A DNA stretch of 64,000 nucleotides from an endosymbiont of Bathymodiolus septemdierum str. Myojin knoll (GCF_001547755.1 NZ_AP013042.1:620001-684000); one strand, 5' to 3'. Positions 329-10,988 are shown, counted from the first letter of the stretch. Notes: a model not told the origin generated them from the sequence alone. Program-made: numbers and translations.

Positions 329-613
329 ATGATTGACAGTACTCAAGTTAAACAAATTGCCTATTTAGCCAAGCTTGGCATTGAAGGCAATGAGCTAGAC
401 AAAACCACACAAGAGTTAAATAACATCTTGGTACTTGCTGAGCAACTATCTGAAATTGACACTGATGGCATTACCCCTATGTCACATCCTCTGCATATGA
501 CTCAGCGCCTTCGAGAAGACGAAGTCACAGAGGTGGATAACGCGACGGCTTTTCAAGCAATTGCCCCGAAAACTGACAATAGACATTATCTCGTCCCAAC
601 CGTGATTGAATAA
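329..613 (+). CDS. gatC: Asp-tRNA(Asn)/Glu-tRNA(Gln) amidotransferase subunit C
   Basis: A 94-residue protein of normal GatC length. GatC is the small scaffold subunit of the GatCAB complex, which converts Glu-tRNA(Gln) or Asp-tRNA(Asn) to the amidated form in the cytoplasm. The N-terminal helices ([12 protein letters not shown]...[20 protein letters not shown]) and the PMSHPL...LREDEV segment are typical of the family. It lies 1 base upstream of gatA. The third subunit, gatB, is about 6.1 kb away because a restriction-type cassette sits between gatA and gatB. Confidence 0.95.
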
Positions 614-614
614 T

Positions 615-2051
615 ATGCACAACAAAACGATTGCACAATTAGCACAAGGTTTAAAAAACAAAGATTTTTCATCTGTTGAATTAACGCAACATTATTTAAA
701 GCGTATTAATCAATCAAAACTCAATGCTTTCATTACTGTTACCGATGAATTGGCAATGCGTCAGGCACAGGTTGCCGATGAAAAAATTACCAAAGGTGAA
801 GCAGGTATATTGACTGGTATTCCTTATGCACATAAAGATATTTTTTGCACCAATGGCGTGAAAACTTCCGCAGGCTCTAAAATGTTAGACAATTTTATTG
901 CGCCGTATGATGCCACCGTTAGCCACAAACTCAATCAAGCTGATATGGTGATGTTGGGCAAAACCAATATGGACGAATTTGCCATGGGTTCAAGCACTGA
1001 AAATTCTTATTATGGCGCAACAATCAACCCATGGGGCGACAACAAAATGCCAGGCGGTTCATCAGGTGGCTCAGCTGCTGCGGTGGCAGATCGGCTGGTG
1101 CCTTTTGCCACAGGTACCGACACTGGTGGCTCTATCCGTCAACCTTCAAGCGTGTGTGGTATCACAGGCTTAAAGCCGACTTATGGGCGTATTTCTCGTT
1201 ACGGTATGATTGCTTACGCATCTAGCCTTGATCAGGCGGGTCCAATGACACAAACTGCCGAAGATGCAGCCTTAACTCTGAATGTTATGGCAGGCTTTGA
1301 TGAAAAAGATTCCACCAGTGCGCAACGCGATGTTGAGGATTATACTGCCAGTCTAAATGATTCAATTAAAGGCTTAACTATCGGCTTACCTAAAGAATTT
1401 TTTTCCGAAGGTTTAGATAATGGTGTGGCTACTAAAGTCATGGCAGCCGTTAAAGAATTCGAAGCATTAGGTGCAACCGTCAAAGAAATCTCCCTGCCGA
1501 ATTCAGCTTACGCAATCCCCACTTATTATATCGTTGCCCCCTGTGAATGTTCCTCTAATTTATCTAGAATGGACGGCGTTCGTTTTGGTCATCGTTGTGA
1601 CAATCCAAAGGATTTGGAGGACTTATATGTGCGTTCTCGCACCGAAGGTTTTGGTGAAGAAGTCAAACGCCGCATTATGATTGGTGCCTACGCACTATCC
1701 GCAGGTTACTATGATGCTTATTATCTAAAAGCACAAAAAGTCAGACACCTAATTAGCGAAGATTTTAAAAAAGCCTTTAAGGAAGTCGATGTCATTATGG
1801 GCCCCGTCTCCCCAACCACCGCATGGGATTTAGGCGCAATCAAAGACCCAGTCGCCATGTATTTAGCCGACATCTACACACTCAGTGCGAACCTTGCAGG
1901 TCTACCAGGTATGAGCATACCCGCAGGCTTTTCAGACAAAATGCCTGTCGGCTTGCAGCTTATTGGTAATTACTGGTCAGAATCCAAATTGCTTAATATA
2001 GCACATCAGTTTCAACAGGCAACTGATTACCATGCAAAAATGCCTGTATAA
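615..2051 (+). CDS. gatA: Asp-tRNA(Asn)/Glu-tRNA(Gln) amidotransferase subunit A
   Basis: A 478-residue amidase-family glutaminase subunit that releases ammonia from glutamine for transfer to the misacylated tRNA. The Ser-cisSer-Lys catalytic triad is visible: K74 in AHKDIF, the GGSSGGS loop (S149/S150), and S173 in [11 protein letters not shown] chose the ATG at 615, one base after the gatC stop; an in-frame TTG at 606 would overlap gatC and add three residues. The gene is full length. It is followed not by gatB, as in a compact gatCAB operon, but by an AT-rich restriction-type cassette. Confidence 0.97.
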
Positions 2052-2139
2052 CTAATAAGATGAACAATAATATTGGCATTAATATATGTATCGATTGCCT
2101 TTTTTTTGTAAAATAACTGTAGAAAAATATAGGTAAAAA

Positions 2140-4314
2140 ATGAATACAGAAGCATTAATACAAAAAGCCATTAATAAAAAAATTATTAGTTTTAACAAAG
2201 ATAGAACGCGTATTACTTATTTACTGCAAAATAAAACTAAAAGTTATAAAACCGAAGAGATTGTTCAAGTTGATGCATATTTAAAGCTAATATTTGATTA
2301 CAATTATCCAAAAGAAAATATCAAGTTATTTGTGCCAGTCAAAATGGGCTCAGACAATCGTGAAGCTGATATTGTTGTTTATAGTGATAAAACTCACACC
2401 AAGCCTTTAATTGTTATTGAGTGTAAAAAATCTGATGTTAGCGAAGCAGAATATAAACAGTCAGTAGCACAAGGTTTTAGTTATGCTGTTAGTATTGGTG
2501 CTGATTTTGTTTGGGCAACTTCAAATATTAAAAACGAATATTATCAGGTTTCTAAAAAATACCCACAAAAACACGAAGAAATAGCCAATATCCCAAAATT
2601 GGGCGGCAAAGTTGCGGCATATAAATATGCAAAAAATGGTAATAGCGATTATTTTGATTTATCAATAGTGAGTGAAGACGAACTCACTGCTAGATTTAAA
2701 CAAGCCCATAATGCTTTATGGGGCGGTGGCGAGCTTAATCCATCAGAAGCATTTGATGAGTTAGATAAACTTATTTTTTGCAAAATATGGGATGAAAGAG
2801 CATTAAGGAGAACGGGCGAAGCGTATGATTTTCAAATCATTACTGAAAGTAATAATGGCGAGATTGATAATCAGGCAACACTAGATAATTTAGCAGAGCG
2901 CATTCACAAACTTTATGACAAAGGTAAAGAAAAAGACCCAGAAGTTTTTAAAGAAAATATTCGCCTGTCGCCTAGTCGTATTAAAACTGTCGTTGAATAT
3001 TTGCAACATATCAATTTAAGTGCAACAGATTTAGACAGCAAAGGTCGTGCATTTGAAACCTTTATGGGTTCATTTTTTCGTGGAGATTTTGGGCAATATT
3101 TTACCCCGCGCCCAATTGTGCAATTTATTGTAGATGCTCTGCCAATCACTCACGAATCAATGGTTTTAGATACCTCTTGTGGTAGTGGTGGTTTTTTGTT
3201 GCATGCACTTGATAAAGTTCGCAAAGAGGCGGATGAATATTATCCAGATGGCATTGCAATAGATGGCAAAAAAGAAAGTGCAGAACACCATAACCATTGG
3301 CATGACTTTGCAGAAAAAAAATTATGTGGAATAGAAATAAACGAACAAATTGCCCGCACTGCAAAAATGAATATGATTATTCATGATGATGGGCATACCA
3401 ATGTAATTGCCGCTGATGGATTGCTGCCGATTGATGATATTGTAGTTAAAAATCAAAATAACGAAGATGTTATTATTCAACAAGGCATTACATCACTGAC
3501 GCAAAATACTAACTTTGAAAATAATAATTTTGATTTTATTATTACCAACCCACCTTTTGGTTCAAGTATTCGTCAAACCGAACAAGCCTATATGCATCAA
3601 TATAGCATGGCAAAAAAAGATCTAGATTGGCTCAAACCAAATGATAAAACAAAAAATAGAGACAACCAAAGTACCGAGGTTTTATTTATTGAAAAATGCC
3701 ATAAATATCTAAAAGAAGGTGGCTATTTGGCAATTGTTGTACCTGATGGGATTTTAACCAATTCATCCTTGCAATATGTTCGTGATAATATTGAAGCTGA
3801 TTACCGCATTGTTGCGATTGTTTCCATGCCACAAACAGCATTTAGTGCCACAGGTGCTGGGGTTAAAAGCTCGGTAATGTTCTTGCGTAAGCACACAGCC
3901 CAAACCACAGAAACTATTAAGGCTCAAAAACAATCAATCAAAGATGATATTTTAGGAAATACTCAATTTTTTAAACAATTAAGTGATATAAATACCAATA
4001 AAAAAACAGACATTAAAAACTCAATAGGTTTTGAAAATACAGACAATTTAGAGCCCGAAGAATTAAATAAAACCGAGGCTTATAAAAATTGGAAAAAGTC
4101 TGTTAATGAAGCATATAAATCAAAAATTGATAATATAAAAGAAAAACTAAACGATAAATATTTAGCAGATAAAAAATCACAATTACAAGACTATGATATT
4201 TTTATGGCAATTGCAGAAAATATCGGTTATGACGCAACAGGAAAGCCAACCAATAACAATGAATTAGACTTTATTGGTCAAGAGCTGCAAAGATTTATTG
4301 AAAGTTTGGGTTAA
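2140..4314 (+). CDS. Restriction-modification methyltransferase with fused nuclease-like N-terminus (HsdM/BcgI-A-like)
   Basis: A 724-residue protein. Residues about 40-130 look like an HsdR N-terminal (PD-(D/E)xK) domain: D77 in READIVVY, followed by E94-x-K96 in VIECKK. Residues about 280-590 form an N6-adenine methyltransferase: GQYFTPRPIV leads into the SAM motif DTSCGSGGF (344-352) and the catalytic NPPF (470-473). The C-terminal 130 residues are Lys-rich and helical. It heads a four-gene cassette with dinD-like, hsdS and a DGQHR-like gene. No HsdR translocase is present, so it may act as a nuclease-methylase with the S subunit, as in type IIG/BcgI systems, or only methylate. Methylation of DNA is the secure part; cleavage is inferred from the motif. 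Confidence 0.85.
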   Translation: MNTEALIQKAINKKIISFNKDRTRITYLLQNKTKSYKTEEIVQVDAYLKLIFDYNYPKENIKLFVPVKMGSDNREADIVVYSDKTHTKPLIVIECKKSDVSEAEYKQSVAQGFSYAVSIGADFVWATSNIKNEYYQVSKKYPQKHEEIANIPKLGGKVAAYKYAKNGNSDYFDLSIVSEDELTARFKQAHNALWGGGELNPSEAFDELDKLIFCKIWDERALRRTGEAYDFQIITESNNGEIDNQATLDNLAERIHKLYDKGKEKDPEVFKENIRLSPSRIKTVVEYLQHINLSATDLDSKGRAFETFMGSFFRGDFGQYFTPRPIVQFIVDALPITHESMVLDTSCGSGGFLLHALDKVRKEADEYYPDGIAIDGKKESAEHHNHWHDFAEKKLCGIEINEQIARTAKMNMIIHDDGHTNVIAADGLLPIDDIVVKNQNNEDVIIQQGITSLTQNTNFENNNFDFIITNPPFGSSIRQTEQAYMHQYSMAKKDLDWLKPNDKTKNRDNQSTEVLFIEKCHKYLKEGGYLAIVVPDGILTNSSLQYVRDNIEADYRIVAIVSMPQTAFSATGAGVKSSVMFLRKHTAQTTETIKAQKQSIKDDILGNTQFFKQLSDINTNKKTDIKNSIGFENTDNLEPEELNKTEAYKNWKKSVNEAYKSKIDNIKEKLNDKYLADKKSQLQDYDIFMAIAENIGYDATGKPTNNNELDFIGQELQRFIESLG

Positions 4315-4317
4315 ATT

Positions 4318-5172
4318 ATGAAAAACGAAATCATTGAGTCGTTTGCAGGTAGTTTTGATACGCATTCACAAACGACTGATAGCGGTATAGAATTTTGGTT
4401 TGCAAGAGACCTGCAACATTTACTGGAATATAGTAAATGGGAAAATTTTCAAAATGTTGTATTTAAGGCAAAAACTGCGTGTGAAGTCGCTGGACATGAT
4501 ATATCTGACCATTTTCCTGAGGTCAGGAAAATGGTCAATATTGGTTCTGGTACAAAAAAAGAAATTGTTGATTTTATGCTCACCAGATACGCTTGCTATC
4601 TCATTGCTCAAAACGGCGACCCAAGAAAAGAAGCTATCGCATTTTCTCAAACCTATTTTGCCATGCAAACGCGTAAATTAGAGTTAATACAAGAGCAAAT
4701 ACACGGTTTAGAAAGACTGCAAGCCAGACAAAAACTCACTCATTCAGAAAAAGAACTCTCAGGCTTGATTTATAAACATACCCAAAATGATAGAAATTTT
4801 GGGGCTATTAGGTCAAAAGGCGATACAGCGCTTTTTGGTGGCAAAACCACCAAAGAGATGAAACAAAAAATGCAAATGCCAGATAATAGAGCGCTGGCTG
4901 ATTTTTTGCCTGCTATTACTATTAAAGCCAAAGATTTTGCCACAGAGATTACCGTTTTTAACACCAAAGAGCATAATTTAATAACTGAAAATTCCATAAC
5001 TTCTGAGCATATTAAAAACAATCAAGGCGTGCGAGATATTTTATTAAAACGCGGCATTAAACCTGAAGATTTACCAGCCGAGGAAGACATTAAAAAACTA
5101 GAACGCAAACTAAAGTCAATGGACAAGAAAATTTCCAAAAATCCTGATAGATTAGGTGTTGATGATGAGTAA
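4318..5172 (+). CDS. dinD: DinD-like DNA-damage-inducible protein
   Basis: A 284-residue protein close in length to E. coli DinD (about 274), with its characteristic segments: FWFARDLQHLLEY near the N-terminus, a central SRYACYLIAQNGDPRK-like block (here TRYACYLIAQNGDPRKEAI) and FAMQTRKLEL. In E. coli, DinD is an SOS-induced inhibitor of RecA filament function. It starts 3 bases after the methyltransferase stop and overlaps the start of hsdS, so it is translated as part of the restriction cassette. DinD relatives are known inside type I operons. Whether it here couples restriction to DNA damage is inference. No LexA box was recognised upstream of the cassette. Confidence 0.85.
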   Translation: MKNEIIESFAGSFDTHSQTTDSGIEFWFARDLQHLLEYSKWENFQNVVFKAKTACEVAGHDISDHFPEVRKMVNIGSGTKKEIVDFMLTRYACYLIAQNGDPRKEAIAFSQTYFAMQTRKLELIQEQIHGLERLQARQKLTHSEKELSGLIYKHTQNDRNFGAIRSKGDTALFGGKTTKEMKQKMQMPDNRALADFLPAITIKAKDFATEITVFNTKEHNLITENSITSEHIKNNQGVRDILLKRGIKPEDLPAEEDIKKLERKLKSMDKKISKNPDRLGVDDE

Positions 5173-6586
5173 TTTTCAACTTTCAAAACAAGTCAACCGC
5201 AATAAAATATTCTTAATTAAGTTTAGTGAATTAGGAAGTCGTTTTGAGCCAAAATTTTATACAAATATTTATACAAATAATGAAAAAAAACTTAATAATT
5301 CAAAATATGAAATAAGCAGTATTTATGAATCAACAAAATTAGTTAGTGATGGGACACATTTCACTCCAATATATAAGAATAGCGGGGTTAAATTTATTAG
5401 CGTTAAAAATGTTAGAACGTCTAAGATAAATTTTTCAAATGTTAAATATATTTCGAAGAAAGAGGCTGATAAATTAGATAGAAGATGTAAACCTATATAT
5501 GGGGATATTCTTTTAACAAAAGTAGGGAGCATTGGAAGAGCGTCAATGGTTTGTACCAATGAAAGGTTCCAAATTTTTGTGAGTGTTGCATTGTTAAGAC
5601 CAAACAATAAAGTTTCTTCAAAATACCTAGAAACTGCTTTAAATTTAAATTGTTCTTATTTGCAATATGACAGAGTTGTTAAAGGCTCTGGCGTTCCAGA
5701 TTTGCATTTAGAAGATATTAGAAAAATAAAAATACCAATCCCACCAAAAAAAATCCAAGCCGAGATTGTGGCAAAAATGGATACTGCTTATAAAAACAAA
5801 CAAGACAAAGAACAACAAGCACAAGATTTACTAAATAGTATTGACACTTATCTTTTGGGTGAGTTGGGCATTGATTTACCCAAACAAATTGATAACAGTT
5901 TAAAAGCAAGAATATTTACCAAAAAAATAAGTGATATTACGGGTGGGCGGTTTGATGCAATAAGCTCACATATGCAAATATATGAAAAATTTTTATTAGA
6001 AGGGAAAACAAAAGTCATTAAATTAAAAGCCGTTGTATCAAGTATTAAAACAGGTTCAACACCACATAATAAACTTGAGCCATATGTAGATAAAGGTATT
6101 CCATTTTTAAGAAATACAAATATTAGTAATGGTTGTATAAACTTATCTAAAGTTAAATTTATAAAAAATGAATTAAAAAATGAATTAACTTATTCAAGTA
6201 AAAATGATGTAATAATTTGTATTGCTGGAACGGTTGGAAATTCTGCCGTAAATACTTATGATAATTTATCAATAAATCAAAATATAACATCTTTGACATT
6301 GAATAAAAATAAGATAAATCCATATTTTTTAAATTATTATTTTAATAGTGACTTAAGTATAAAACTTGTAAAAAGACAGTGTTCGATAGCAACAATTTTA
6401 TATATAAATAATGATAATTTATTAAATTTATACATCCCACTACCACCATTAGTAAAACAAAATCAAATCGCAGAGCGTATTAACAAAATACGAGACCAAG
6501 CAAAACAATTACAAATTGAAGCAAAAGACGAATTAGAACAAGCAAAAAAAGAAATTGAAACGATGATTTTAGGCGGTGAACAATGA
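5165..6586 (+). CDS. hsdS: Type I-like specificity subunit S
   Basis: A 473-residue HsdS with two target-recognition domains (about 25-175 and 240-420), each followed by a helical spacer (EIVAKMDTAYKNKQDKEQ and QIAERINKIRDQAKQL). Motifs such as GDILLTKVGSIGRA and the PIPPKKIQ and PLPPLVKQ junctions are typical. It should set the DNA sequence recognised by the methyltransferase at 2140. I chose the ATG at 5165 because an AGGTG stretch lies 6 bases upstream; ATG 5162 and GTG 5156 are in-frame alternatives. The start overlaps dinD, and the stop overlaps the next gene as ATGA. Confidence 0.88.
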   Translation: MSNFQLSKQVNRNKIFLIKFSELGSRFEPKFYTNIYTNNEKKLNNSKYEISSIYESTKLVSDGTHFTPIYKNSGVKFISVKNVRTSKINFSNVKYISKKEADKLDRRCKPIYGDILLTKVGSIGRASMVCTNERFQIFVSVALLRPNNKVSSKYLETALNLNCSYLQYDRVVKGSGVPDLHLEDIRKIKIPIPPKKIQAEIVAKMDTAYKNKQDKEQQAQDLLNSIDTYLLGELGIDLPKQIDNSLKARIFTKKISDITGGRFDAISSHMQIYEKFLLEGKTKVIKLKAVVSSIKTGSTPHNKLEPYVDKGIPFLRNTNISNGCINLSKVKFIKNELKNELTYSSKNDVIICIAGTVGNSAVNTYDNLSINQNITSLTLNKNKINPYFLNYYFNSDLSIKLVKRQCSIATILYINNDNLLNLYIPLPPLVKQNQIAERINKIRDQAKQLQIEAKDELEQAKKEIETMILGGEQ

Positions 6587-8151
6587 TTTTACGCGGCTTG
6601 CTTGATCGTTCATTGGGTAATATGGTTTGTATTCGTGGTTTTGCTAAGTTAGGAGATTTGGCAAATATTTCAATAGCAGATGAAAGTTATCAGCGTGATT
6701 TAATTACAGAGCATAAACAAGAAGTTTTAGACTTTTTGCGTGAACAAGAAACGCTATTTTTTCCTGAAATAATTTTAAGTTATAGTGTTGATGAGTTGGT
6801 GCTAGATTTGCATCAATTTAAGTATAATGATAAACACTTAAAAATAACAACCAAAACAAATAAGTATAAAAATAAACAAGATGCAAGGGGCAAAGATAGT
6901 ATGCAAATTGCTACTATCAACATTACAGAGAATATTTATTTTGGGTTTAAAGGTCAAAACAACGTCAAAGGTTTTGGTCAAGCGCCTTTTCGCAGAAAAG
7001 ATGACAAATCAGTTAATGAAATATTTAAACGCATTGATGGCAATCATCGATTAAGTGCTGCTGATGAGGAGATAAAGGATAACAATATTCAAGATTTAAT
7101 TACGCCGTTTTGTTTGTTATTATTGCCTAAACAGTTTGAAACAAACGCTAATACATTTGAAGAACTTACCACAGATAAATTGGAAAAGACTATTTTTCAC
7201 AATATTAACTATAAACACATTCCACTGAAAAAAGAGCATCATTACAAAATGATGATTGGCGATGAAACGGTTTTTACCGATACTAATTTAACGAAAAATT
7301 TTGGCGAAGAATATTCTTCTGCAAGATGTTATTTAAACGAATTTAATTATGGTGAATTTGGCAATTTAAAATCAGCATTAGTTGATAATAAATATACTTT
7401 TACGCATGATTTACAAAAGTTATTATTAGATAAAGATGGGCAGCAAAGAAAGGGCAGTAAGGATATTAACCAAACATTGAAGTTAATAAACACAATTTAT
7501 GGCAATCATCCAATATTATCAAAACATAAGCATTATGGTTTGTTAATTGCCTTTGTATATTTTGCAGTGCGCGCCAATAAATCATTATCAGAAAAAGAAC
7601 TCAATGCTTTTGCCACTTGGGTGGTTGATAATTTTGTGTATAAAATTTCCCAAAAAGATGCAAATAGCATTATTGCAATGTATGAAAATATTATTGAAAA
7701 ACGCTATAAAGAAATTTTTATTTCAATGGATTTTTCTACAAAATATCAAGCCACTTATCAAGCAATAAAGGGTGTTATCAACGAAATAAACACTGATTTA
7801 CAAGAAAATATTAAATTATATCCAATGCGTATTGATCAATTTCAAACAGGATATTCTTATAAATTAGATAATGAAATTTTCAAACAAATTGAACAATGCG
7901 GTTTGATGATTGCAGATTTATCAAATAATAATGTTAATGTATATCAAGAAGTTGGTTTTGCAATGGGGCTTAATTGTAATTCTGATAATGAAAACATACT
8001 ATTATTAAAACAAGACAGCAAACAAGATGAATCAGTTGATAGCGAGGTAGGCTTTAATTTACGCTCAACTAAACAATTAAGATTTAAAGATACAGAAGAT
8101 TTAAGACAATCTTTAGAATCAGAGCTTTTAAAATATTATGAATTGAAATAA
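6583..8151 (+). CDS. DGQHR/ParB-like protein with C-terminal TIR/deoxyribosyltransferase-like domain
   Basis: A 522-residue protein with two recognisable parts. The N-terminal half has the layout of DGQHR (DndB-like) proteins: SYQRDLI, then FFPEIILS, and RIDGNHRLSAA at 150-160, the variant of the DGQHR signature. Residues about 375-465 resemble the TIR-like/nucleoside 2-deoxyribosyltransferase-like fold: EIFISMDFS, a Rossmann-like alternation, then ADLSNNNVNVYQEVGFAMG with a candidate catalytic Glu at 456. The start codon overlaps the hsdS stop (ATGA), so it belongs to the restriction cassette. DndB-like proteins act in DNA-modification systems, and TIR-like domains often degrade NAD or nucleotides. 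An abortive or regulatory role here is inference. The assignment of each half rests on motifs only. Confidence 0.65.
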   Translation: MILRGLLDRSLGNMVCIRGFAKLGDLANISIADESYQRDLITEHKQEVLDFLREQETLFFPEIILSYSVDELVLDLHQFKYNDKHLKITTKTNKYKNKQDARGKDSMQIATINITENIYFGFKGQNNVKGFGQAPFRRKDDKSVNEIFKRIDGNHRLSAADEEIKDNNIQDLITPFCLLLLPKQFETNANTFEELTTDKLEKTIFHNINYKHIPLKKEHHYKMMIGDETVFTDTNLTKNFGEEYSSARCYLNEFNYGEFGNLKSALVDNKYTFTHDLQKLLLDKDGQQRKGSKDINQTLKLINTIYGNHPILSKHKHYGLLIAFVYFAVRANKSLSEKELNAFATWVVDNFVYKISQKDANSIIAMYENIIEKRYKEIFISMDFSTKYQATYQAIKGVINEINTDLQENIKLYPMRIDQFQTGYSYKLDNEIFKQIEQCGLMIADLSNNNVNVYQEVGFAMGLNCNSDNENILLLKQDSKQDESVDSEVGFNLRSTKQLRFKDTEDLRQSLESELLKYYELK

Positions 8152-8179
8152 TACATAGATCATTAATTAGGAATTAAAT

Positions 8180-9610
8180 ATGGAATGGGAAACAGTTATT
8201 GGGCTTGAAATTCACGCGCAATTAAATACAAAATCTAAGATATTTTCATCAGCTTCTACGCAATTTGGTGCGCAGCCGAATTCACAGGCTTGTGCGGTTG
8301 ACCTTGGCTTGCCGGGTGTGTTGCCAGTATTGAATAAAGAAGCGGTGAATAAAGGTATTAAATTTGGTTTATCGGTGGGTGCGCATATTAATCAACGCAA
8401 TGTTTTTGATAGAAAAAATTACTTTTATCCTGACCTGCCAAAAGGCTATCAAACCTCGCAACTAGATTGGCCGATTGTGGGTGAAGGGCAGATTGATATT
8501 ACCATCGGCAATACCGTTAAAACGGTTGGTATCACTCGTGCACACTTGGAAGAGGATGCGGGCAAATCAGTCCATGATATGTTTGATGATTACACTGCGG
8601 TGGACCTAAATCGTGCGGGCACACCGCTGCTGGAAATCGTTTCTGAGCCGGATATGCGTAGCGCTAAAGAAGCCGTCGCTTATGCGAAGAAAATTCACGC
8701 TTTGGTACAATATATTGATATTTGTGATGGCAATATGCAAGAGGGGTCTTTTCGCTGTGATGCCAATGTTTCTATCCGTCCGATGGGGCAGGAAAAACTC
8801 GGCACCCGTGCAGAACTTAAAAATATTAATTCGTTTAAATTCTTAGAAAAAGCCATCAATCTTGAAGTGCAAAGACAGCAAGATATTTTAGAGGACGGTG
8901 GTGAAGTAGCGCAAGAAACACGCCTGTATGACTCGATAAAGAACGAAACCCGTTCAATGCGTTCAAAAGAAGAGGCGAATGATTATCGCTATTTCCCCGA
9001 CCCAGATTTATTACCGATTGAGATTCCAGATGAATTATTGGTTGAAATTAAGTCCCAACTGCCAGAGTTGCCGCCTGAAAAGAAAGCTCGTTTCGTTAAA
9101 GATTTTGGTTTGAGCGATTATGATGCCGATGTATTAACGACGCAAAAACCCTTGGCAGATTATTTCGAGGCAATGTTAAAAGGCAACGAGCCTAACGCCA
9201 AACTTTGTGCAAATTGGGTAATGGGAGAACTTAGTGCTGCGCTCAACAAAGAGCAAATAGATATCCAAGCATCGCCTGTTTCGGCGCAAGATTTATCACA
9301 GCTCATTACTCGCATCGGTGATGATACTATTTCTGGTAAGATTGCTAAAGATGTTTTTAAAGCAATGTGGGATGGCGAAGGCAATGTTGATGAAATCATT
9401 AATGCAAAAGGTTTAAAACAAATGAGTGATACCGGTGAAATTGAATCTATTGTTGATGAAATTATTGCCAACAATGCCCCGCAAGTTGAGCAATTCAAAT
9501 CTGGTAATGAAAAAATATTAGGTTTCTTCGTTGGACAGGCGATGAAAGCAACGGGTGGCAAAGCTAATCCTAAAATGCTCAATGAAATGCTCAGGTTAAA
9601 ACTTGGCTAA
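8180..9610 (+). CDS. gatB: Asp-tRNA(Asn)/Glu-tRNA(Gln) amidotransferase subunit B
   Basis: A 476-residue GatB, the subunit that binds and activates misacylated tRNA. It begins with the family hallmark [13 protein letters not shown], carries the [11 protein letters not shown] and HLEEDAGKS motifs of the catalytic cradle, and ends with the helical YqeY-like tail domain. The ATG at 8180 is preceded by TTAGGAA at suitable spacing. It is the missing partner of gatC-gatA and resumes directly after the restriction-type cassette, so it may now depend on read-through from the cassette or a local promoter. The gene appears intact. Confidence 0.97.
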
Positions 9611-10988
9611 AACGACTTTGGATTTTGCATCTTTGGGCGAGGATTTTTTTAAACCCGTTGAAACGCAACCGTTAAAAAATAGCTTTATAATCCATAAAAA
9701 TCAAACGCTTTACAATAAGATTGGTTTGGATTTAGACGATGCCACTTTACTCAAAGTTGCCGCAGGTGAGCAAACCTTTCAAGATACGCAGCCTGTTGCC
9801 AGTATTTATGCAGGACATCAGTTTGGACATTTTGTGGCGCAATTGGGCGATGGTCGTAGTTGCCTAATTGGGCAAACAAACGGATATGAATTATCACTCA
9901 AAGGTGCGGGGAAAACGCCGTATTCTCGTGGCGGGGATGGTCGCGCTGTCTTGCGTTCTTCTATTCGTGAATACCTCTGCTCTGCTGCCATGCAAGGATT
10001 GGGTATTGCCACCACTGAAGCTTTGACTTTAGTCAGTAGCGAGACCGAAGTCTATCGAGAAAATATTGAACCAGGTGCAATTGTGATGCGCACCGCGCCC
10101 AGTCATATTCGCTTTGGTCATTTTGAATTATTCGCTTCCCGTGGGCAAAAAACAGAAGTTAAAAGACTTGCTGATTTTGTCATTGAACGCCATTATCCCG
10201 AATGCCAAGGTGATAATAAGTATGTAGATTTTTTTGCAGAAGTGGTTAAACGCACCGCAAAAATGATTGCCGGTTGGCAAGCACAGGGTTTTGAGCATGG
10301 TGTTATGAATACCGATAATATGTCTATTCTTGGATTGACCATTGACTACGGTCCGTTCGGATTTTTAGAAATTTATGACCCACATTTTATTTGCAATCAC
10401 TCTGATCACGAAGGACGCTATGCATTTGACCAACAGCCGGGTATTGGACTATGGAATGTATCGCGCTTGGCTGATGCATTACACAGTCTCATTGACGATA
10501 AACAGGTCAAAGCTGTATTAGCAACTTATCAACAACATTTAGTGCGTTATTATTCATCATTGATGCGTCAAAAATTCGGTTTGTTTGAAAAGGATGATAA
10601 TGATAATCAACTGATTGGTAATTTTCTCTCTATCCTTTATCAACACAAAAAAGATTATACCAATAGCCTTCGCAACCTGTCCAGTTTGGAAAGTTTATCT
10701 AATGATAAACATTATGAAGCCTGGTTAACAATCTACCAATCTCGCATTGAACAGGACAAAAATATGAAGCGTATTGCGTTAATGAACGCAGTAAATCCTA
10801 AATTCATTTTGCGTAATTATCTGGCGGAAGTTGCTATTCGCAGTGCCCAAGATGACAAAACATACAAAGAAATAGACACCTTATTTAATCTGCTTTCTAA
10901 CCCTTTTGATAATCATTTAGGTTTCGAATCTTATACCAACGAAGCCCCTGCTTGGGCGCAAAATTTAGAAATCAGTTGCTCTTCTTAA
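9603..10988 (+). CDS. selO: SelO family protein adenylyltransferase (YdiU)
   Basis: A 461-residue pseudokinase-fold protein; the family transfers AMP to Ser/Thr/Tyr of target proteins in redox stress responses. Hallmarks visible are [36 protein letters not shown] (nucleotide binding), and [20 protein letters not shown] (metal-binding Asn/Asp). The C-terminus ends in CSS, the position where selenocysteine occurs in vertebrate SelO. The likely start is TTG at 9603, overlapping gatB by 8 bases. It converges with the M50 protease gene, overlapping it by 4 bases. Length is slightly shorter than E. coli YdiU (about 478). Confidence 0.92.

Follow-up and report, generated by a model that had tools for sequence, protein, structure and literature searches.

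The locus described here raises the question of why a protein that combines a domain linked to DNA modification with a domain of a type acting on NAD or nucleotides should be encoded together with a restriction-modification (R-M) enzyme. It lies in a window of 64,000 nucleotides, the whole stretch of DNA that was analysed, from an endosymbiont of Bathymodiolus septemdierum str. Myojin knoll (GCF_001547755.1 NZ_AP013042.1:620001-684000). Four genes are found here in one direction between gatA and gatB, namely those for a methylase, DinD and HsdS and an open reading frame (ORF) for a fusion of a DGQHR-type domain with a TIR/nucleoside 2-deoxyribosyltransferase (NDT)-type domain. An earlier note, made from the DNA alone, had described this ORF as the fourth gene of a restriction operon. 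According to our analysis the conserved core comprises three genes, encoding a fused nuclease-methylase, HsdS and the DGQHR/TIR protein, and on balance we favour the view that this core is a BcgI-like R-M system that carries a second line of defence of its own.

A family of DGQHR/TIR fusion proteins

With the window protein as single query, no match was obtained in Pfam, no PDB chain was matched by phmmer and no relative was found in a first scan of viral sequences or among phages. Since these single-sequence searches gave little, profiles built from relatives were needed. The search proceeded stepwise from a decayed plasmid copy to two full-length relatives and then to 144 candidates, obtained by scanning about 85,000 species with two seed peptides (residues 150-157 and 205-211). 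As only two seeds were used, 144 is a lower bound, and the invariance of the seed residues is partly built in. The best 80 candidates were kept, chosen by the fusion protein alone (L numbers denote these and other loci), and the family alignment contains 79 sequences, i.e. the window protein and 78 relatives.

The fusion protein is a real family, beyond chance, because these 78 aligned relatives share its full-length architecture, with 25-38% identity to the window protein. Residues R18, G19, S30, Q37, R38, E62, N452 and E456 are invariant in all 79 sequences. The start of the fusion gene overlaps hsdS, as the earlier note had it; its ATG shares 4 bp with the hsdS stop (ATGA) and agrees with the family consensus start MxLxGILxxSLGGFLCIRG. 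A structure model of the full-length protein reached a predicted local distance difference test score (pLDDT) of 86.5 and a predicted template-modelling score (pTM) of 0.77.

Members in the tree come from Pseudomonadota, Bacteroidota, Bacillota, Spirochaetota, Thermotogota, Planctomycetota, Nitrospinota, Thermodesulfobacteriota, Campylobacterota, Lentisphaerota, Kiritimatiellota, Balneolota and Melainabacteria. The family is thus present in at least a dozen phyla, with several members on contigs of metagenome-assembled genomes whose taxon labels may be wrong. The phyla are intermixed in the tree, which implies horizontal transfer. A phage-borne origin was rejected, as the one viral contig retrieved is apparently the same as the Clostridiales genome contig L071 and so does not count as phage evidence.

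The decayed copy (L002:10870-13113; Leisingera thetidis plasmid NZ_CP109788.1) is one ORF annotated 'N-6 DNA methylase', in which the methylase (window residues ~114-498) continues in frame into the fusion protein from about residue 97 onward. An apparent deletion took the methylase C-terminus, HsdS and the start of the fusion gene.

Predicted folds of the two domains

The window protein matches NCBIfam DGQHR weakly (1.4e-3) and misses the curated score of TIGR03187 (18.5 bits versus a cut-off of 58.85); the N-terminal domain is therefore named DGQHR-type here and not filed in that family. Within the family, NCBIfam DGQHR is matched by 64 of the 79 members (E<=1e-3; best 2.6e-16), Pfam DndB (PF14072) by 12/79 and NCBIfam DpdB by 3/79. 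Hallmarks of DGQHR domains are a QR pair, an FxxxN motif and the DGQHR pentapeptide (PMC4619093). All three occur in 79/79 sequences, the pentapeptide as DGNHR, and for the latter two the count is partly biased by the seeds. Residues 1-375, modelled alone (pLDDT 86.5, pTM 0.79), were compared with solved structures by VIA-align. The top 12 rows, with Z 5.9 to 7.7, all belong to chains of ParB, Noc, PadC or KorB, among them ParB-N (5k5d, Z 7.7) and ParB-CDP (7bnk, Z 7.2), ParB bound to CDP or a CTP analogue scoring about 7. Sulfiredoxins (Srx) and SspE make up most of the following rows (Srx-ATP 3cyi, Z 5.4; SspE 6jiv, Z 4.3). Because consistent fold matches, profile matches and the motifs QR, DGxHR and FxxxN agree, the modelled N-terminal domain is assigned the ParB/sulfiredoxin fold of DGQHR type. 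An N-domain search, limited to 60 genomes of the same phylum, returned only the known match in G369.

For the C-terminal part, the PADLOC TIR effector model matches the window protein weakly (5.9e-6) and 55 of the 79 members, and Pfam nucleoside 2-deoxyribosyltransferase (Nuc_deoxyrib_tr) is matched by 35/79 members versus 6/79 for CAP12 TIR. The family profile matches a solved NDT at 7e-5 and, weakly, also MilB, a CMP N-glycosidase, and Rcl. In VIA-align, residues 374-522 superimpose on the SPARTA TIR domain (8i87_G) with Z 15.4 and a root-mean-square deviation of 2.6 over 134 residues, on DNPH1 (8rpt_B) with Z 14.4 and on NDT (7o62_B) with Z 13.7, values by which TIR and NDT are not separable. 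The model displays a Rossmann-like fold in which the helix that follows the ADL strand bears the predicted active-site Glu, as in TIR and NDT proteins, the stretch ADLSNN...YQEVGFAMG corresponding to residues 444-462. The Glu in question, E456, aligns with a glutamate that is conserved in T. brucei NDT, MilB and Rcl and that is the catalytic residue of solved NDTs and of the other two enzymes. E456 is hence the predicted catalytic glutamate of a TIR/NDT superfamily member. SPARTA-type TIR domains degrade NAD+.

The earlier note had proposed a DGQHR/ParB-like N-terminal and a TIR/NDT-like C-terminal part and was prepared to abandon the proposal if a structure search found neither fold or if homologues proved unlinked to restriction genes. 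Structure search of both halves recovered both folds, and the linkage is addressed next.

Restriction-modification partners and genomic setting

An R-M gene (methylase, HsdS or HsdR) adjoins the fusion gene in 78/78 loci whose contig reaches upstream; the remaining two, L038 and L079, begin at contig edges. This linkage is not built in, because the loci were picked by the fusion protein only, and the association with restriction genes expected earlier thus holds almost without exception. The gene order is methylase-HsdS-fusion in 53/80 loci and methylase-fusion-HsdS in 17/80. In all 64 cases in which the preceding gene bears the label HsdS or methylase, it lies no more than 100 bp away, and in 42 of them the gap is exactly -4. 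In a sample of 398 genomes from the phylum, this methylase was found at E<=1e-60 only in the two with a full-length fusion, a small number. Distances between methylases correlate with those between fusion proteins (r=0.55; 0/2000 permutations as high).

The methylase ORF matches Pfam N6_Mtase (7.4e-33) and HSDR_N_2 (4.2e-17) as well as PADLOC MTase_I (4e-190). Its NPPF motif is present in 74 of 77 aligned copies, the remaining 3 being gapped, and the nuclease residues D77/E94/K96 are intact in 68/68 partner methylases covering the region. In the window operon, with gatA before and gatB after the four genes, no hsdR was found. A type I operon missing hsdR was nevertheless ruled out, as the methylase itself bears the nuclease domain, which is intact in all copies that cover it. 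A nuclease domain fused to the methylase is the layout of BcgI-like enzymes (PMC3874165). Judged from the genes alone, the operon agrees with BcgI-like type IIB/IIG R-M systems in its fused nuclease-methylase subunit with catalytic motif, its separate two-repeat HsdS and the lack of HsdR; it differs from them in its third conserved gene, in a subunit closest to PADLOC MTase_I and in a nuclease of the HSDR_N_2 type. BcgI-like pairs without the fusion also exist, on a plasmid (L119) and in the window's own genome (L117), so that the fusion belongs with one subgroup of these enzymes. Canonical HsdR is present in a fully supported clade of four loci (L085, L086, L089, L090), where HsdM and HsdS are also canonical as far as the contigs reach. 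Of the earlier description, the restriction context consequently stands, but the operon is not type I: it has no HsdR, its nuclease is fused to the methylase and its core has three genes. Although the window methylase and HsdS match MAD2 and MAD5, they do so below the curated thresholds (307.6 versus 720 bits and 114.5 versus 400 bits), which rules out membership in MADS; the other operon proteins do not match MAD families.

Several further observations concern these partners. In L019, L035 and L037, two ORFs that adjoin or overlap each other together make up the methylase, next to an intact fusion gene; decay, phase variation or a sequencing error could account for this. In L003, the ORF at 8033-9982, which precedes the fusion gene, is a chimera of a sigma-70-like N-terminus and half an HsdS, and an Mrr-type nuclease follows. 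The pair without a DGQHR/TIR gene in the window's own genome (C1 ~743-747 kb, L117:5569-9014) consists of an HSDR_N_2 + N6_Mtase subunit and HsdS; near it lie a gene that by eye resembles a tyrosine integrase and one that appears Fic-like.

DinD, one of the genes in the earlier four-gene arrangement, was found in only one other retrieved locus (L028) and, being present in only two loci, was ruled out as a core part. Accessory genes elsewhere (L012-L091) encode GmrSD, Mrr, McrB-like AAA, Schlafen AlbA, HEPN LA2681, HD-CE, T5orf172, DUF6035/CoiA, RhuM, DinD, Hypoth_Ymh and helicase proteins. The core operon resembles a platform with one additional slot of exchangeable content.

The GC content is about 0.28-0.36 in the insert compared to 0.37-0.46 in the flanking genes, and in the congener G754 (locus L103) the gatA-gatB gap is empty and about 15 bp long. 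The operon is an insertion at a gatA-gatB site that repeatedly receives defence-type genes in the genus. At the congener junctions compared (L099, L103, L112, L105), the gap of G750 holds genes for DUF4007, a PAPS-reductase-domain protein, a helicase and GmrSD_N; that of G751 holds the same first two genes (DUF4007, PAPS reductase) and that of G325 a DUF4160/DUF2442 pair. The features of the locus are collected in Table 1.

Table 1. Features of the gatA-gatB region, in window positions.
Feature	Position	Strand	Basis or remark
DGQHR/TIR fusion protein, 522 amino acids	6583..8151	+	intact ORF
N-terminal DGQHR-type domain, modelled ParB/Srx fold with helical extension, residues 1-375	6583..7707	+	
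QR pair, Q37-R38	6691..6696	+	invariant 79/79
RIDGNHRL motif, residues 150-157, DGQHR variant	7030..7053	+	alignment; scan-seed bias
FHNIN, the FxxxN motif, residues 205-209	7195..7209	+	alignment; partly scan-seed bias
C-terminal TIR/NDT-type domain, residues 374-522	7702..8148	+	fold and profile matches
E456, predicted catalytic glutamate	7948..7950	+	invariant 79/79, outside seeds
Fused R-M subunit, 724 amino acids: HSDR_N_2 nuclease + gamma-type N6-adenine methylase, NPPF at residue 470	2140..4314	+	
PD-(D/E)xK-type nuclease domain, D77/E94/K96	2254..2595	+	Pfam HSDR_N_2, residues 39-152
HsdS, two target-recognition repeats	5156..6586	+	Pfam Methylase_S 8.9e-24, two stretches
DinD (Bro-N) accessory gene, optional	4318..5172	+	NCBIfam PRK11525 2.4e-106; PADLOC PDC-S13 2e-113
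gatA	606-2051		directly precedes four-gene insert
gatB	8180-9610		directly follows four-gene insert
Left junction (gatA end to operon start)	2052..2139		congener gatA-gatB spacing, GC shift
Right junction (operon end to gatB start)	8152..8179		congener gatA-gatB spacing, GC shift

Proposed mechanism, alternatives and meaning

A second, abortive line of defence is suggested because the fusion joins a modification-linked NTPase-type domain (NTP, nucleoside triphosphate) to a TIR/NDT effector and is made together with the R-M enzyme. What the analysis directly establishes is how the genes are arranged, that this arrangement is conserved, which folds are predicted for the two domains and that the predicted active sites are intact. 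On this basis the mechanism would run as follows. The methylase/HsdS complex would mark self DNA with N6-methyladenine and cut unmarked DNA, while the DGNHR domain would act as a switch that binds NTP and contacts either this complex or its DNA. The trigger might be DNA that is foreign or misprocessed, or else a phage that disables the complex, upon which NTP binding or hydrolysis would release the C-terminal domain. The latter would then cleave, via E456, the N-glycosidic bond of NAD+ or nucleotides, so that the infected cell is halted. By homology, the model of the earlier note, in which the protein would respond to the modification state or to disturbance of the complex and would use up NAD or nucleotides, appears reasonable.

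SspE and PrrC/PrrI provide precedents. The ParB-like N-domain of SspE, with its DGQQR motif, hydrolyses GTP upon sensing DNA modification and thereby licenses the C-terminal nuclease, and GTP hydrolysis and defence both require the Arg of this motif (PMC13251355). The fusion protein would follow the same logic of recognising, hydrolysing and activating, but its effector would destroy metabolites where that of SspE is an HNH nuclease. SspE and GmrSD (DUF262-HNH) share with it an N-terminal ParB/Srx NTPase-type sensor with a DGQQR-like motif and a C-terminal effector, and SspE likewise belongs to a DNA-modification system. The fusion differs in its TIR/NDT C-domain, the C-terminal HNH domain (GmrSD_C, PF07510) having no match in the family, and in its association with adenine methylation instead of phosphorothioation or hypermodified phage DNA. 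SPARTA TIR-APAZ resembles it in the fold of the C-domain, in the TIR-type active-site Glu and in the coupling of a nucleic-acid sensor to TIR; the sensor there is Argonaute/APAZ with guide RNA and not an R-M complex.

Tentatively, a further step is possible, in which the N6-adenine R-M complex would be the recognition module of an alarm system and the DGNHR protein an NTP-gated sensor or clamp on non-methylated foreign DNA, converting a self/non-self decision into destruction of NAD+ or nucleotides.

Several points weigh against an abortive second line of defence. Every family member has DGNHR in place of DGQHR, i.e. N for Q (79/79). The Z values of the N-domain all lie below 8, each of them middling, and Foldseek alone gave no significant E-value for this domain. 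The modelled fold of the C-domain would fit NAD+, a deoxynucleoside monophosphate (dNMP) or another compound as substrate. Length-matched correlation with the methylase is stronger for the N-domain (0.51-0.58) than for the C-domain (0.38); while this speaks for docking of the N-domain on the R-M complex, the gap may partly reflect faster change of the C-domain. Finally, in L003 (= L071) the fusion has no nearby methylase and is accompanied only by the sigma-factor/HsdS chimera and the Mrr nuclease.

The last locus also bears on the best of the alternatives, a guard of the PrrC type, in which the toxin would be silent inside the methylase/HsdS complex and freed when a phage anti-restriction factor disables or disassembles it, the protein itself reading no DNA. 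PrrI-PrrC (EcoprrI, type Ic) is an established precedent with a toxin gene within a type I hsd operon (PMC3874165; PMC3506569), proposed as a second line upon failed restriction. The tight operon coupling, the co-variation of N-domain and methylase and the retention of the fusion with canonical HsdMSR and fused R-M subunits alike are consistent with such a guard. However, a freely active toxin would not tolerate L003/L071, where the fusion is intact without a nearby methylase, and the N-domain resembles NTPase sensors and not a passive anchor. PrrC combines an ABC-ATPase with a HEPN anticodon nuclease, whereas the fusion combines ParB/Srx with TIR/NDT; no ABC-ATPase or HEPN match was found by Pfam in the window protein or other members. 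The PrrI R-M enzyme keeps PrrC silent until either an anti-restriction peptide or unmodified DNA sets it free (PMC3506569), so that guard and sensor models overlap. We consider the guard model doubtful.

A second alternative, which we regard as unlikely, is a DndB-like regulator: the DGNHR protein would mainly control methylation or transcription of the operon, and the TIR/NDT domain would be a nucleotide-binding or oligomerisation module without killing. One source describes DndB, itself a DGQHR protein, as a negative regulator modulated by ATP (PMC10853773). DGQHR-type domains are genetically tied to DNA modification in the Dnd and Dpd systems too, and some members match the DndB and DpdB profiles. 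Few members reach these profiles, though, partner chemistry and fused C-domain differ, and all 78 informative loci adjoin methylase, HsdS or HsdR genes instead of dnd or dpd genes. The invariance of E456 and N452 (79/79) argues for catalysis, we know of no TIR/NDT domain in DndB or DpdB, and the BcgI-like pairs without fusion (L119, L117) indicate that methylation does not require it. Least probable is nucleotide trimming by a DNPH1/MilB-like N-glycosidase that would remove modified phage nucleotides (e.g. hydroxymethylated dNMPs) blocking restriction, without cell killing: DNPH1 and NDT lie within 1 to 2 Z of SPARTA TIR, MilB and Rcl are weak profile matches and Nuc_deoxyrib_tr outnumbers CAP12 TIR (35/79 versus 6/79), but 55/79 members match the TIR effector model and a constitutive scavenger would need neither fusion to a DGQHR sensor nor strict operon linkage.

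The coupling of R-M to suicide is a known idea, which rests experimentally mainly on PrrI/PrrC (PMC3506569), and ParB-type proteins in R-M neighbourhoods have been noted in general terms (PMC3506569; PMC3710099). The passages in which Dnd and BREX surveys discuss ParB proteins in defence contain no mention of the fusion (PMC10853773; PMC12839542), and PADLOC (2023), NCBIfam and Pfam hold no model for the whole protein. A literature search, which covered few subscription papers or preprints, found no description of it, so that its novelty is provisional. With this proviso, the DGQHR/TIR fusion with an R-M core appears undescribed; the earlier suspicion that the four-gene arrangement was undescribed agrees with the literature searched, but has to be restated for a conserved unit of three genes.

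With its fixed three-gene core and at least 144 loci, the DGQHR/TIR operon is a far more widespread candidate for restriction-suicide coupling. It unites two modules that are each well understood. In annotations, loci of this kind probably often pass for ordinary R-M systems, as the label of the decayed copy illustrates. The favoured BcgI-like system with a second line of defence predicts that E456, R156 of DGNHR and the DNA methylation state each control cell survival. If the alarm-system version were true, one methylation mark would decide both DNA cleavage and cell suicide.

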